This document shows, one piece after another, positions 5,889 to 35,999 of a stretch of 35,999 nt of DNA. Position 1 is the stretch's first letter. The number at the start of each line of letters is the position of its first letter. Origin of the DNA: a virus. Made by a program: the position numbers and the translations under genes. The notes under the pieces are model-generated. The model had not been told where the DNA came from. It ran no database searches and saw only the letters and a list, made by a program, of their open reading frames with translations. The stretch is taken from IMG/VR virus record IMGVR_UViG_3300027736_000116, positions 1-35,999 of that record, one strand, 5' to 3'.

Positions 5889-7307
5889 TTACAACTGACT
5901 TATACGCTTACCTATCCATCTCATCACAGGAACTGCCATAGAATTACCTAATGCTTTATATCGAGTCGTGTCACTTGATGTTGGAGTATGAGTATAACCA
6001 TCTGGAAAGCCTTGTAACCTTTCACATTCCATTGGGGTTAATCTACGCACTCTCATTTGTTGCATAACTTTTGGACCACTATGAGTTGGACCGGCCATAT
6101 CTGCCGTCATTGTTGCAGTAACATCACCTTGAATAGTTCCATTGTATGTATCAACTGCAACTCCAGGTCTTTGGCATGCGGTTAAAGTTCCAGACAATTC
6201 TCTTTCAAATTTCATTTCATCTGGTCTAGCATTAACATGAAATCCATGAGCAACTGCTACCTGGTTATCACCCATGACTGCTCTTAATGTAGGAGATAGT
6301 TCTTTTGAAAACCTAGATGGATTACCTTCACGCTTTGCAATACCAGGTTCAAATCCATAAGCAACTCCATGTACACCACTTGCATTTAATGTATACATGA
6401 CTTCTTCTGAGTATCCATTACCATTACCACCATTGTGAGCTTGCCTACCTATAATGTTTTCTGCAATAGCGTATGACTTAGGTTCTAATACTAAAGGTTT
6501 AATATCTAAATCTGCACCGCCTGTTCCATAACTAGCAGTCAATGTTTTAGATACATCCTTGAGATCAATAGCACTGACACCTCGATCAATAATTATTTTA
6601 GTATGATCGTAGTTATCAATGCCTTTATGATCTCTTGCAAGTAATGATCCTACAATGACTGCGTTACCTTCTGATCTTGCTGGATTGTAACTGCCGTAGC
6701 TTGAAGGGCTTGCCTTAATGCAGTTGGCAATTTCTTTTCCCTCTTGTCTGCTCGGTGTAATATCCCTAGACAAGCTTTCGGACTCAAATAATACTTTGGC
6801 AGCACTTCTCCAGTCTCCAAGACATCCGACAACGAACACACGTCTGCGTCTTTGTGGCACTCCGAAGTATTGAGCGTCAAAAACTCTGTAGGCGAACCCA
6901 TACCCGAGTTCAGCCATCCCTTTAAGGAGACAGGCAAAGTCCTCTCCTCCGTTACTAGAGAGAACACCTGGGACATTTTCCCATAGTAACCATTTTGGTT
7001 TAAACTTTTCTGCAATTCCAAGATAGGTGAGCATGAGGTTTCCCCTTGGATCTTCAAGACCTTTTCTAAGTCCGGCGACTGAGAATGATTGACAAGGGGT
7101 TCCTCCGACCAAAAGTCCGATTGATTCATTTAGATTCCATTCTTTATAGTTAGTCATGTCTCCGTAATTGGTTACATGTGGGTAGTGATGTTGTAATAAT
7201 TGACTTGGAAACTTCTCAATTTCTGAGAATCCAACTGGGTTAAATCCTAGATCATGCCATGCTACTGTTGCGGCTTCAATGCCTGAACATACTGACAGAT
7301 AGTTCAT
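5889..7307 (-). CDS. C5-cytosine DNA methyltransferase
   Basis: The 472-residue protein contains the ordered motifs of cytosine-5 methyltransferases: motif I SVCSGIEAATVAW (5-17, SAM binding), motif IV GGTPCQSFS (68-76, catalytic Cys72), motif VI WENVPG (109-114), motif VIII QRRRRVFVVG (152-161) and motif X YKALGNSMAVPV near 450-461. The long insert between VIII and IX (about 165-430) is the target-recognition region and holds loosely repeated S/T-L-T-A/S segments (SKTLTASYGTGG, SGTLTACQRPG, TATMTADMAGP), a feature of phage enzymes of this type. It probably protects phage DNA from host restriction; no partner endonuclease is present. It is the last gene of a leftward operon, starting 2 bases past the stop of the 49-aa gene. 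Confidence 0.95.
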   Translation of the reverse strand: MNYLSVCSGIEAATVAWHDLGFNPVGFSEIEKFPSQLLQHHYPHVTNYGDMTNYKEWNLNESIGLLVGGTPCQSFSVAGLRKGLEDPRGNLMLTYLGIAEKFKPKWLLWENVPGVLSSNGGEDFACLLKGMAELGYGFAYRVFDAQYFGVPQRRRRVFVVGCLGDWRSAAKVLFESESLSRDITPSRQEGKEIANCIKASPSSYGSYNPARSEGNAVIVGSLLARDHKGIDNYDHTKIIIDRGVSAIDLKDVSKTLTASYGTGGADLDIKPLVLEPKSYAIAENIIGRQAHNGGNGNGYSEEVMYTLNASGVHGVAYGFEPGIAKREGNPSRFSKELSPTLRAVMGDNQVAVAHGFHVNARPDEMKFERELSGTLTACQRPGVAVDTYNGTIQGDVTATMTADMAGPTHSGPKVMQQMRVRRLTPMECERLQGFPDGYTHTPTSSDTTRYKALGNSMAVPVMRWIGKRISQL

Positions 7308-7460: not shown

Positions 7461-7589
7461 TTAATTCCCTCTTATAAAAAATAAATCAATTAATATGTAA
7501 CATCCATAAGCAAGCCAAATCATACTACTAATAACTAATAACCATACTATAACATCTACTATTTTTTCTACTAATTTAATAAAAGACAT
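7461..7589 (-). CDS. Tiny membrane protein (42 aa)
   Basis: ATG at 7589, TAA at 7461-7463. The 42-residue product has a short charged N-terminus (MSFIKLVEKIVDV) and then one long hydrophobic segment (IVWLLVISSMIWLAYGCYIL) ending in DLFFIRGN. It overlaps the end of the cell wall hydrolase gene by 14 bases, and the next gene starts one base after its stop. Association with a cell wall hydrolase suggests a holin-like or pinholin-like role, but it could also act on the host membrane in another way. Confidence 0.55.
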   Translation of the reverse strand: MSFIKLVEKIVDVIVWLLVISSMIWLAYGCYILIDLFFIRGN

Positions 7590-7929
7590 GATTTTTAATC
7601 ACAGTTCTAGGTTTCATTCCCCATTGGTTTGGTAATTCTACACTATGAAAATGTGTAGCACCATGACTATAATCTTTCACTTGTTGATTTAAAATCTTAT
7701 TAGACAAATCAATGTAAGGCTGCAATTGTTGCATGGTAGGTACTTTAAAAGCTTTGGTAGTCCATTCAAATTGGTATGGTCTATAAGTCTCACGACATAC
7801 GTTCTTAGGATCAAACTCTGACCTACGATACAACACGTATCCCACCGCCACTTGGCCAGGGAATGGTTCCCCCCTAGCCTCATGGTACAAAGTCAAACTC
7901 ATACACATCACTGCTGCAATATCTAACAT
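7576..7929 (-). CDS. Cell wall hydrolase, SleB-like (Hydrolase_2)
   Basis: The 117-residue protein has the SleB-type lysozyme-like core: LTLYHEARGEPFPGQVAVG (Glu17 in HEARGE is the likely catalytic acid), VLYRRSEFD, VCRETYRPYQFEW and the C-terminal DYSHGATHFHSVELP...NHVFY. I chose ATG 7929 because it follows AAAGGAGAC by four bases; an upstream in-frame ATG at 8007 lacks a site and would run through the putative promoter. No signal peptide. SleB-type enzymes cleave peptidoglycan glycan strands. This is the second lysin in the genome and lies in the leftward operon with the methyltransferase, not in the late lysis group. Confidence 0.88.
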   Translation of the reverse strand: MLDIAAVMCMSLTLYHEARGEPFPGQVAVGYVLYRRSEFDPKNVCRETYRPYQFEWTTKAFKVPTMQQLQPYIDLSNKILNQQVKDYSHGATHFHSVELPNQWGMKPRTVIKNHVFY

Positions 7930-7966
7930 AAAGTCTCCTTTGCTTAGATAGCTTTCATGGTTTTGC

Positions 7967-7985
7967 GTATATACTTTGTATATAC
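7967..7985. promoter_or_regulatory. Double GTATATAC operator-like repeat
   Basis: Two copies of the self-complementary octamer GTATATAC (7967-7974 and 7978-7985) are separated by TTT. The arrangement is both a direct and an inverted repeat, as expected for a dimeric regulator. It lies between the divergent starts of the SleB operon (7929, minus) and the PqqA gene (8044, plus) and overlaps the -10 of a leftward promoter candidate. Confidence 0.45.
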
Positions 7986-7997
7986 AATTATTTACAA
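7968..7997 (-). promoter_or_regulatory. Leftward promoter candidate for the SleB-methyltransferase operon
   Basis: On the minus strand, TTGTAA (7997-7992) is followed after 18 bases by TATATA (7973-7968). Transcription would start about 30 bases upstream of the hydrolase ATG at 7929. The -10 box lies within the GTATATAC repeat, so binding there would block transcription. Confidence 0.45.
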
Positions 7998-8043
7998 TAA
8001 TACACACAAGCTATGTTGCTTGTATTTTATTAAGGACAAAATT

Positions 8044-8115
8044 ATGTGGACAACTCCATTAGCTACTGAAATGCGCTTCGGCTTCGAAGTTACGATGTAT
8101 GTAATGAATAAATAA
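8044..8115 (+). CDS. pqqA: PqqA, pyrroloquinoline quinone precursor peptide
   Basis: A 23-codon gene on the plus strand, ATG 8044 to TAA 8113-8115, with AAGGA at 8032-8036 and a 7-base spacer. The peptide begins MWTTP, has RFGFEVTMYV at residues 11-20 and ends NK. It has the same length as Klebsiella PqqA and matches it at Trp2, Pro5, Arg11, Gly13, Glu15, Val16, Thr17, Tyr19 and Asn22, with a basic last residue. Glu15 and Tyr19 are the two residues that PqqE (with PqqD) crosslinks and that become PQQ. No other pqq gene is present, so the host must supply PqqB, C, D, E and the protease. It stands alone, divergent from the SleB operon, and its last 26 bases overlap the end of the convergent gene at 8090-8290. 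PQQ serves methanol dehydrogenase, so this is a likely auxiliary metabolic gene. Confidence 0.9.
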   Translation: MWTTPLATEMRFGFEVTMYVMNK

Positions 8116-8290
8116 GCCAAGCGTATACAGATAGGGCAATGCCTGCGGAGATCTTTGTTGCTCTCCATACGCGTTGCCTTTTATCTTTAGGTGACTCTAA
8201 TGTCACCTCATACTCATAGCCATTAAGTTCTTTAAATGAGCGTGGGAAGCGCCATTCAAATGCATTGAAGTCTGTTTTAACTGGTTTCAT
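8090..8290 (-). CDS. Small C-terminally anchored membrane protein
   Basis: The 66-residue product has a charged, aromatic N-terminal domain (FNAFEWRFPRSFKELNGYEY, then EVTLESPKDKRQRVWRATK) and a single hydrophobic segment near the C-terminus (ISAGIALSVYAWLIYSL, about 47-63). Ribosome binding site AAAAGGA seven bases before ATG 8290. It is the last gene of the leftward recombination operon, three bases after the annealing protein gene, and its 3' end overlaps the end of the PqqA gene on the other strand. I do not recognise a family. Confidence 0.55.
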   Translation of the reverse strand: MKPVKTDFNAFEWRFPRSFKELNGYEYEVTLESPKDKRQRVWRATKISAGIALSVYAWLIYSLHTS

Positions 8291-8293
8291 TGA

Positions 8294-9007
8294 TTATCCT
8301 TTTACATTTTTGATGCGTGTGGCGTGTTTGCCTAAGTATTGCATCTTTAGTGTTATGGGTAGGCGGTTTAATGTAAGCTCATTGGCTTCAAATAATGCCT
8401 TAAGTTTAGATATCTTATCCTCTGATGAAAGACTAGAATTAACTAGCTTGTCATTCATTTCATCAAACTTTGCTTGCCATGTCAATAGATCAGATACCTC
8501 TTGAGCTTCTTTTCCAGGCACAAAGAAGGTAAATGTACTACTAAGTGGTTTTTTTGCAACACTGCCAGACCTTTCTGTAGCTAAGTTACCATCATCATCC
8601 TCTGGTGCAATACCACAAGCAGCCATAAGGCTACCTCTACGACAGTAAGTCAATGATGCCATGACACCATGCGGATCTATCTTGGATGCGGGGATGTGTA
8701 AGATACCACCACTCAAAGTCTCACCTGACTCATGGATAAAAACAGTCTCCACCTTGACACCATCATCACAATCATGCGTCTTTTGTATAAGACCAATACC
8801 ATTGTTATGTAGTGCGTCAATGACTGCCTCAATACACCCTTCCAAGTTTACATATTTACTGCGAAAGTGTGGATTAGTAGCTGTTTTAATTGCCGGAGCA
8901 AACTCCTTTTGTGCTTTGATAAATGCTGCTGATATAGTTTTCATACTTTTCTCCTGTTGTTGTAATTCATTCATAACTTCTGCTTCAAAACGATCTTGGT
9001 CATTCAT
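8294..9007 (-). CDS. erf: ERF-family single-strand annealing protein
   Basis: The 237-residue protein matches the ERF superfamily in its first 150 residues: ISAAFIKAQKEFAPAIKTAT, NPHFRSKYVNLEGCIEAVID, ALHNNGIGLIQ, then VETVFIHESGETLSGG, IPASKIDPHGVMASLTYCRR and GSLMAACGIAPEDDDGN. This order of Y.NL..v..a....l..nGl...Q, and then the P.....D.Q..GS..TYarRY-like segment, defines the family. ERF proteins anneal complementary single strands in phage recombination and genome circularisation, usually with an exonuclease; the YqaJ nuclease two genes upstream fits this. The C-terminal part is alpha-helical and variable. It starts just one base after the preceding stop. Confidence 0.88.
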   Translation of the reverse strand: MNDQDRFEAEVMNELQQQEKSMKTISAAFIKAQKEFAPAIKTATNPHFRSKYVNLEGCIEAVIDALHNNGIGLIQKTHDCDDGVKVETVFIHESGETLSGGILHIPASKIDPHGVMASLTYCRRGSLMAACGIAPEDDDGNLATERSGSVAKKPLSSTFTFFVPGKEAQEVSDLLTWQAKFDEMNDKLVNSSLSSEDKISKLKALFEANELTLNRLPITLKMQYLGKHATRIKNVKG

Positions 9008-33932: not shown

Positions 33933-35951
33933 ATGGCTGATTATGCAATAACCAACGTAGCAAGACGAATAGTATACACAGGATCTGCTGGTATAGGCCC
34001 CTATGCATTTTCGTTTCCTGTACTCACTAGTACAGATATCGCAGTATACAAGAATACCACACTTCTTACTTTAACTACAAATTATACTGTAACCATTAGT
34101 CCAACTACTGGTCAAGGATCAGTCACATTAGTAGTAGCTGCCACAAACGCTGATCGTATTACTATTGTAGGTGCTAGATCTATTGAGCGTTCAACAGACT
34201 TTGTAACTGGTGGTGATTTCTTTGCTAATACATTAAATACAGAATTAGACTCAGATGTTATATTTGTTCAACAAGTGGCTGAAACAGCAGAGCGTTCACT
34301 TAAAGCTCCTGTAACAGATCCTACTTCTATTAACATGACGTTGCCATACAATACAACTCGTGCTAATAAGTTTTTATCTTTTGATGCTGATGGTAATCCA
34401 ACAGTAACTAATGCAGTAGGCACATACAAGGGTAATTGGGCTGCATCTACAGCATATATTGTTTATGACATTATTAAAGATACATCTAACAATAACATCT
34501 ATATCTGCTTAACTGCACATACATCTACAGGATCACAACCTATATCAAGTAATGCCGATGTAGCTAAATGGTCACTGCTTGTAGACGCTGCTTCTGCTAC
34601 AACATCTGCTACCAATGCTGCAACAAGCGCTACCGCAGCTGCTGCATCAGCATCTGCTGCAAGTAGTTCAGCTTCTGGAGCAAGCACCTCTGCTACTAAT
34701 GCGGGTATATCTGCCGCTGCTTCTGCTGCTAGTGCTTCTACATCTACAGCTCAAGCTGTTATATCAACAACTCAAGCAAGTAACGCTTCAACATCAGCAA
34801 GTAATGCTTCTACATCAGCAAGTAACGCTTCTACGAGTGCTACAGCTTCTGCTGCATCGGCAAGCGCTGCTTCAACAAGTGCAACTTCTGCTTCTGGATC
34901 TGCTTCTACTGCTACAACACAAGCTTCTAATGCATCAACATCAGCTTCTAATGCAAGCACATCAGCTGCTGCTGCCTCAACAAGTGCTACTGCCTCAGCT
35001 GCTTCTGCAACAACTGCAACGACTCAAGCAACAACAGCTACTACACAAGCATCAAATGCTTCGACAAGTGCTGCCTCTGCTGCTGCCTCTGCTGCTGCTG
35101 CTCTTACAGCATTAGATAATTTTGATGATACATATTTAGGAGCTTTTTCAAGTAACCCTACATTAGATAATGATGGAAATGCTTTAACCACAGGGGATTT
35201 ATATTTTAATACAGTAGGCAATGAATTACGTGTATACAATGGAACAACTTGGCAAGCAGCTGCGGTTTCTGCTGCAAGCTTTTTAACTGTTTCTAACAAC
35301 TTATCTGATGTAGCTAATACTGGCACAGCAAGAACAAACCTTGGTCTTGCTATTGGCACTAATGTTCAAGCTTATGATGCTGAATTGGCTGCTCTTGCTG
35401 GATTAACTTCTGCGGCTAATAAAGGTATTCAATTTACTGGATCTGGCACTGCTGCCACATATGACTTAACAACTGCGGGTAAAGCATTATTAGATGATGC
35501 TGATGCAACAGCACAAAGAGTCACATTAGGTTTAGGCACATTAGCTACCATATCGCCTACAGGCACAGCAGACGCTACAACATTCCTTCGTGGAGATAAT
35601 GCATATGCAGTAGTATCAGTCACACCTACTGCTGTATCAGATCAAGCTAACTCATCCACAGGATACTTTGACTTACCAGTAGGAACAACAGGACAAAGAC
35701 CAGGCTCACCAACATCTGGGAACATGCGTTACAATACTACTACCAATGGCTTTGAAGGGTATAGTGGAACTGCATGGGGATCTATCGGTGGAGGCGCATC
35801 TGCTGGTGGTGCAATCTATGAGAACACAACAACAATCAGCTCTAACTATACATTAACAACAAGCACTAATGGATTTAGTGTTGGACCAATTACAATTGCT
35901 GCTACTTATGCAGTCACAGTTCCTAGCGGTGCGCGCTGGGTAGTCCTTTAG
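33933..35951 (+). CDS. Tail fibre protein (T7 gp17-like N-terminus)
   Basis: The 672-residue protein has a T7-tail-fibre-like N-terminal domain (about 1-130: AITNVARRIVYTGSAGIGPY, VTLVVAATNADRITIVGARS, then FVTGGDFFANTLNTELDSDV) that attaches to the tail. A small aromatic module at ~164-217 (YKGNWAASTAYIVYDIIKD; IYICLTAHTS) resembles a carbohydrate-binding fold. Residues ~219-393 are an Ala/Ser/Thr/Asn repeat shaft. Then come beta modules (GDLYFNTVGNELRVYNGTTW; NLSDVANTGTARTNLGL; FLRGDNAYAVV) and the RPGSPTSGNMRYNTTT unit. Its C-terminal codons are repeated at 1-293. Confidence 0.92.
   Translation: MADYAITNVARRIVYTGSAGIGPYAFSFPVLTSTDIAVYKNTTLLTLTTNYTVTISPTTGQGSVTLVVAATNADRITIVGARSIERSTDFVTGGDFFANTLNTELDSDVIFVQQVAETAERSLKAPVTDPTSINMTLPYNTTRANKFLSFDADGNPTVTNAVGTYKGNWAASTAYIVYDIIKDTSNNNIYICLTAHTSTGSQPISSNADVAKWSLLVDAASATTSATNAATSATAAAASASAASSSASGASTSATNAGISAAASAASASTSTAQAVISTTQASNASTSASNASTSASNASTSATASAASASAASTSATSASGSASTATTQASNASTSASNASTSAAAASTSATASAASATTATTQATTATTQASNASTSAASAAASAAAALTALDNFDDTYLGAFSSNPTLDNDGNALTTGDLYFNTVGNELRVYNGTTWQAAAVSAASFLTVSNNLSDVANTGTARTNLGLAIGTNVQAYDAELAALAGLTSAANKGIQFTGSGTAATYDLTTAGKALLDDADATAQRVTLGLGTLATISPTGTADATTFLRGDNAYAVVSVTPTAVSDQANSSTGYFDLPVGTTGQRPGSPTSGNMRYNTTTNGFEGYSGTAWGSIGGGASAGGAIYENTTTISSNYTLTTSTNGFSVGPITIAATYAVTVPSGARWVVL
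34589..35110 (+). repeat. Ala/Ser/Thr/Asn coding repeat in tail fibre shaft
   Basis: Reiterated units of the type ASNASTSASNASTSASNAST are encoded by near-identical DNA, for instance around 34774-34840 (GCTTCTACATCAGCAAGTAA repeated). This low-complexity shaft is expected to form a trimeric coiled-coil rod, and the DNA repeats allow length change by slippage or recombination. Confidence 0.8.
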
Positions 35952-35999
35952 GAGAAACAAATGGCTTCAAGTATAAATGCTTCAACGAGTGGTGCTGGT
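35659..35999. repeat. Terminal direct repeat, right copy (genome overlap)
   Basis: Counterpart of 1-341 with seven differences. First 127 bases identical, then C at 35786, A at 35834, T at 35841, T at 35867, T at 35876, T at 35891 and A at 35894 in place of the left copy's bases. The join defines a circle of about 35,658 bp. Confidence 0.9.
35961..35999 (+). CDS. C1q-like tail protein, 5' fragment (cut by window end)
   Basis: The first 13 codons (MASSINASTSGAG) of the gene whose complete copy is at 303-920. Ribosome binding site GGAG eight bases before the ATG. Present only because the window runs past the start point of the circle. Confidence 0.9.
   Translation, partial: MASSINASTSGAG

Follow-up and report, generated by a model that had tools for sequence, protein, structure and literature searches.

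PQQ is made from a peptide, PqqA, in which PqqE, together with PqqD, joins a Glu and a Tyr residue before PqqB and PqqC finish the product. Each PQQ uses up one PqqA. The auxiliary metabolic genes of phages mostly encode enzymes, e.g. psbA and pmoC. The phage pqqA gene described here resembles these in being a host-derived function kept by the phage, but its product is a consumed substrate peptide and not an enzyme.

Phage PqqA was reported in 2020 for a T4-like population of Lake Baikal, VP_266, whose phage also encodes a methanol dehydrogenase (PMC7678222), and the viral genes of a 2026 sediment survey include pqqA, pqqD and pqqE (PMC13188868). The gene of the window (the whole stretch of 35,999 nucleotides analysed here) is like that of VP_266 in being phage-encoded and in its proposed role, the provision of PQQ for methanol dehydrogenase. 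In contrast to VP_266, the window has no PQQ-dependent methanol dehydrogenase gene of its own (no match to the PQQ-dependent alcohol dehydrogenase family, TIGR03075, was found in it), and it belongs to the small MEP301-type lineage. PQQ goes unmentioned in the papers on MEP301, MEP401/402 and Venkman, and in that on Melnitz it appears as a medium ingredient only. As we found no report of pqqA in cultured methylophages, of its near-constancy or of a solo cassette in the open literature searched, the last two appear to be new.

The pqqA gene of the window

The window is a near-complete phage genome, its first 341 bases being repeated at its end with 7 mismatches. These near-identical ends (1-341 and 35659-35999) lie within a tail-fibre-like gene; they are a terminal repeat or, alternatively, come from diverged reads where a circle closes. 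Its kin is the Methylophilales phage MEP301, with 80.7% DNA identity across the connector and capsid region and protein identities of 84.7% for the terminase and 86.4% for the capsid. A resolvase-family recombinase is also encoded. A C5 cytosine DNA methyltransferase gene (5889-7304, minus strand) has 76.6% DNA identity over ~400 bp to Roseobacter phages CRP-821/822 and is missing from several otherwise close relatives of the window. The features around pqqA are as follows.

7576..7929, minus strand: cell wall hydrolase (PF07486), divergent upstream neighbour; Pfam match 7576-7914, start at 7929 chosen from the ORF reading
7930..8043, plus strand: divergent intergenic region, presumed promoter region of pqqA
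8032..8036, plus strand: ribosome binding site AAGGA, 7 nt 5' of the ATG, read from the sequence
8044..8115, plus strand: pqqA, 23 codons and stop; above the curated cut-offs of PF08042 and TIGR02107, conserved frame
8090..8290, minus strand: opposing gene of 66 aa with 58 relatives in viral contigs
8133..8188, plus strand: terminator-like hairpin and, after it, TTTTATCTTT; 17 nt past the pqqA stop and within the opposing gene
8294..9007, minus strand: ERF-family recombination protein (PF04404)

An earlier note on this DNA had picked out pqqA by its PqqA-like length and key residues, and this reading holds. The frame at 8044-8115 (plus strand) runs from ATG to TAA and translates to the 23-aa peptide MWTTPLATEMRFGFEVTMYVMNK, which scores 36.6 bits against the Pfam family HMM PF08042 (cut-off 21.1, E 4e-9) and 35.2 bits against that of NCBIfam TIGR02107 (cut-off 20). 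When the whole record was searched for PqqA, this gene was the single match (34.4 bits, E 1.5e-9); the same search found none in 14 control genomes. The translation has Trp2, Pro5, Arg11, Gly13, Glu15 and Tyr19 and ends in Asn-Lys, with the E-x-x-x-Y spacing as E15-VTM-Y19. The peptide shares its length, Trp2, Pro5, Arg11, Gly13 and the EVTMY core with PqqA of Methylophilaceae, and the alignment with these that the note had proposed gives 22 of 23 residues matching the commonest host peptide, MWTTPAATEMRFGFEVTMYVMNK. In contrast to the host genes, the copy in the window sits in a phage genome without PqqE. Judged by these family models and residues, the window peptide is a true PqqA.

The gene is opposed in strand to both of its neighbours (7576-7929 and 8090-8290, both minus), and its last 26 bp are overlapped by the 66-aa gene, for which no Pfam match was found. 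With a MEP301-like terminase and capsid, phage genes on both sides and the same gene in cultured phages, pqqA lies in a real phage genome.

Distribution and conservation among phages

A tblastn search of ~50,700 phage records found PqqA only in phages of Methylophilales/Methylophilaceae, in the uncultured spring phage ctXG6705 and in two 'Acinetobacter phage' contigs. Approximate probes of Methylobacterium and Pseudomonas type found no further phages. Of the two 'Acinetobacter phage' matches, neither of which was used further, the one examined is bacterial, pqqA being followed there by pqqB, pqqC and pqqD. This contig, a 144-kb record labelled 'Acinetobacter phage MD-2021a' (CAKLQF020000010.1, 1-4054), also has ppk and looks bacterial.

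All nine identifiable methylophage records, a set that excludes MEP431-434 and Venkman EXVC038S, carry one copy of pqqA: P19250A, MEP301, Venkman, MEP401, MEP402 and four Melnitz. They are like the window in having one PqqA each, which is not annotated as such. The phages with pqqA fall into groups sharing few genes, i.e. the window with MEP301, Venkman with ctXG6705, P19250A, MEP401/402 and the T4-like Melnitz. The pelagiphages HTVC008M and HTVC011P have no PqqA, and the first of them is of the same family (Kyanoviridae) as Melnitz.

The MEP301-type phages divide by base composition. Among records chosen via terminase or capsid and no shorter than 28 kb, pqqA is found in 10/10 with a GC content of 37-39% and in none of the five relatives (G052-G056) with a GC content of 43-58%, whose capsids are still 79-82% identical. 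The GC difference suggests that these high-GC relatives without pqqA probably have other hosts. Related capsids seem to have passed between hosts that differ in base composition. In shorter fragments of the lineage the occurrence of pqqA is mixed, as expected of fragments.

Conservation of the frame was measured at 58 loci, chosen, against circularity, via the neighbouring 66-aa gene and hence independently of pqqA. The frame is intact at 57 of them, and the single locus without it (G071) is an incomplete contig ending in that very region. The intact copies represent 18 DNA variants, none with a stop, with a pN/pS of 0.12 and with third codon positions making up 11 of the 18 variable columns. 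The E-x-x-x-Y spacing is retained in all 18, and in none of them is either of the other forward frames open. Since the frame is open at 57 of the 58 loci, pN/pS is 0.12 and the other forward frames are closed, its conservation is, on the aligned sequences, far beyond chance. The earlier note had named loss of the frame in related phages, or stops and frameshifts in variants, as grounds for giving the gene up; apart from the incomplete contig, neither loss of the frame nor stops came to light. The search for the same gene in related phages that it proposed was answered by all nine methylophage records and by 57 of the 58 loci, and its placing of the host in the Methylophilaceae is backed by kinship with MEP301, a shared commonest peptide and near-exclusive occurrence in methylophages. 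On the genomes compared, pqqA is a near-constant gene of methylophages, a wider scope than the note had given it.

A wider survey scanned IMG/VR with a degenerate DNA pattern, in which the motif itself required Glu15 and Tyr19, and found at least 120 stretches with the PqqA motif. Pooled with the phage records and the window, the matches listed comprise 127 copies, 117 DNA versions and 56 peptides. Trp2, Pro5 and Arg11, which lie outside the search motif, are invariant across the 106 distinct 23-codon versions among these matches.

None of the nine methylophage records annotates PqqA; they lack a feature there or have, on the opposite strand, a hypothetical ORF. Such ORFs lie over pqqA in Melnitz and ctXG6705. 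These two, QZI94879.1 (Melnitz, L005 2961-3056, minus strand) and UOF77531.1 (ctXG6705, L006 2067-2195, minus strand), may be spurious and hide pqqA. For one of the nine genomes, five gene callers and curation by hand were used, and pqqA is still unnamed (PMC9004378). That genes of this size are easily missed by gene calling, as had been claimed, is thus seen in nine deposited genomes.

Expression signals and the missing PqqE

Both signals attributed to pqqA earlier, a good ribosome binding site and a divergent upstream region of its own, were found again. AAGGA stands 7 nt before the ATG; AAGGA, AAGGAG or TAGGAG similarly precedes pqqA in aligned relatives, and a core like that of a Shine–Dalgarno sequence is found in 121 of the 127 phage copies among the matches listed. 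The intergenic region 7930..8043, bounded upstream by a gene on the minus strand, includes GTATATAC-TTT-GTATATAC at 7967-7985 and a small hairpin at 8006-8023. A consensus sigma-70 promoter was not found on the plus strand upstream of pqqA in the window. Among the phage matches listed, TATAAT occurs at -65 to -20 in 37/116 copies, against a mean of 11.9 and a highest count of 22 in 100 shuffles. This enrichment sets the phage copies apart from those of Methylophilaceae hosts, with TATAAT in the same interval in 0/122.

Terminator-like hairpins follow 49/116 phage copies among the matches listed (5.0 expected) and 90/126 host copies (9.8 expected). In the window, the stretch 8100-8195 folds with -27.6 kcal/mol (z -2.2), and the T-run of the hairpin at 8133-8188 is on the same strand as pqqA. 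The pairs of this hairpin are retained in 466 of 476 cells across 28 relatives, with one compensatory pair; as much of this stretch is invariant and also coding, the covariation is weak support. The commonest arrangement, that of the window, places pqqA antisense to both neighbours (42/106 among the matches listed). As a set, the phage copies look in sequence like a stand-alone cassette: an upstream region enriched in TATAAT, a ribosome site, 23 codons and, often, a terminator.

The earlier note had seen no other pqq genes nearby, and for PqqE this extends to the whole record of the window, in which none was found (TIGR02109). None of 43 phage records has PqqE above the family cut-off, so that pqqA is without this partner in the window and in all 43. 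Matches to PqqE in control genomes were radical-SAM background, none over the cut-off. Exactly one PqqA is present in each of 36 long viral records, which were chosen for carrying the motif. A PQQ-dependent alcohol dehydrogenase (TIGR03075) was found in one of 54 records, of 72 kb (IMGVR_UViG_3300025120_009955), where a frame of 628 aa at 34049-35731 exceeds the cut-off. It lies ~6 kb from pqqA; the pairing of the two genes resembles that reported for VP_266 from Baikal.

The dosage of these genes in the hosts is uneven. Twelve host genomes have 1 to 7 pqqA, usually several, and 11 of them have one PqqE, the twelfth being an incomplete single-cell assembly. For Methylophilaceae, 3-12 pqqA genes are described, yet typically one pqqBCDE set (PMC4109929). 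Availability of PqqA is reported as rate-determining in Methylovorus MP688 (Ge et al. 2015, as cited in PMC11317620), and pqqA as dispensable, other copies aside, in Methylobacterium extorquens AM1 (Toyama and Lidstrom 1998, as cited in PMC11317620). The idea that a phage might supply the precursor alone, raised at the outset, fits the lack of PqqE in the 43 phage records, the single PqqE and usually several pqqA of the hosts and the description of PqqA as rate-determining.

Proposed role and its meaning for methylophages

The most probable reading is that phage pqqA is a working gene which, as a unit of its own, feeds host PQQ synthesis for methanol dehydrogenase; its expression during infection, its processing by host enzymes and its benefit to the phage are inferred. 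It would be transcribed during infection as a small unit on the strand opposite to its neighbours. Host PqqE and PqqD would cross-link Glu15 and Tyr19 of the phage peptide, and host PqqB and PqqC would convert the product to PQQ, one peptide per PQQ. The enzymes, being catalysts, could be left to the host, whereas the peptide would be consumed, and for this reason the phage would carry pqqA alone. With the extra PQQ, PQQ-dependent methanol dehydrogenase (XoxF/MxaF) would stay loaded with its cofactor as host gene expression fails, which would sustain the supply of energy and carbon for phage growth. A phage needing more PQQ, or needing it after host transcription fails, would gain most from the consumable peptide. 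The gain may be modest, as the hosts have several pqqA already.

Methanol dehydrogenase, central to these hosts, is the likely beneficiary. The precursor might instead be supplied with the gain lying elsewhere, in lanthanide handling, antioxidant protection, another PQQ enzyme or a product derived from PqqA; for Methylorubrum, a link between an orphan pqqA and lanthanide uptake has been suggested (PMC11317620). We regard this as unlikely given the restriction of pqqA to phages of methylotrophs and the joint presence of pqqA and a PQQ alcohol dehydrogenase in the 72-kb record and in the Baikal phages (PMC7678222).

A peptide that binds the same enzymes could also act as a decoy, occupying PqqE and PqqD and slowing host PQQ synthesis. 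A decoy would be expected to alter Glu15 and Tyr19, but both are retained, also in the set selected by the neighbouring gene without use of the motif, and the commonest phage peptide among the matches listed is identical to the commonest host peptide, which makes this reading improbable. Also very improbable is that selection maintains the 72 bp for something other than the peptide, be it DNA, for example a site that matches host pqqA and serves attachment or recombination, or a regulatory RNA. The several host copies of pqqA would be possible targets and the phage has a resolvase-family recombinase, but selection is on the peptide, as the abundance of synonymous variants shows (pN/pS 0.12); among the matches listed, 18 distinct DNA sequences encode one and the same peptide, and between the window and the closest host copies found, 8/72 bases differ. 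The attachment site was rejected on this codon-level selection. A chance ORF or host contamination, which the shortness of pqqA and its lack of annotation in most methylophage records might suggest, can be dismissed given the HMM scores above the cut-offs, the conserved frame, its presence in cultured phage genomes, the phage genes on both sides and the near-identical ends of the window (7 mismatches in 341 bp).

Supply of the peptide to host PQQ synthesis remains the preferred reading; the host peptides are identical or nearly so, and the phage gene is under purifying selection. With somewhat less assurance, we favour the broader view that the stand-alone pqqA cassette is a near-universal and repeatedly acquired hallmark of Methylophilales phages, that supply of the peptide is a general bottleneck of infection and that the gene marks the host. 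It would then be a short sequence by which methylophages in metagenomes could be recognised, and it illustrates how genes of this size are lost in gene calling. Its presence, without PqqE, in 9/9 methylophage records from several lineages suggests that the supply of the PQQ precursor matters for, and limits, the infection of methylotrophs.
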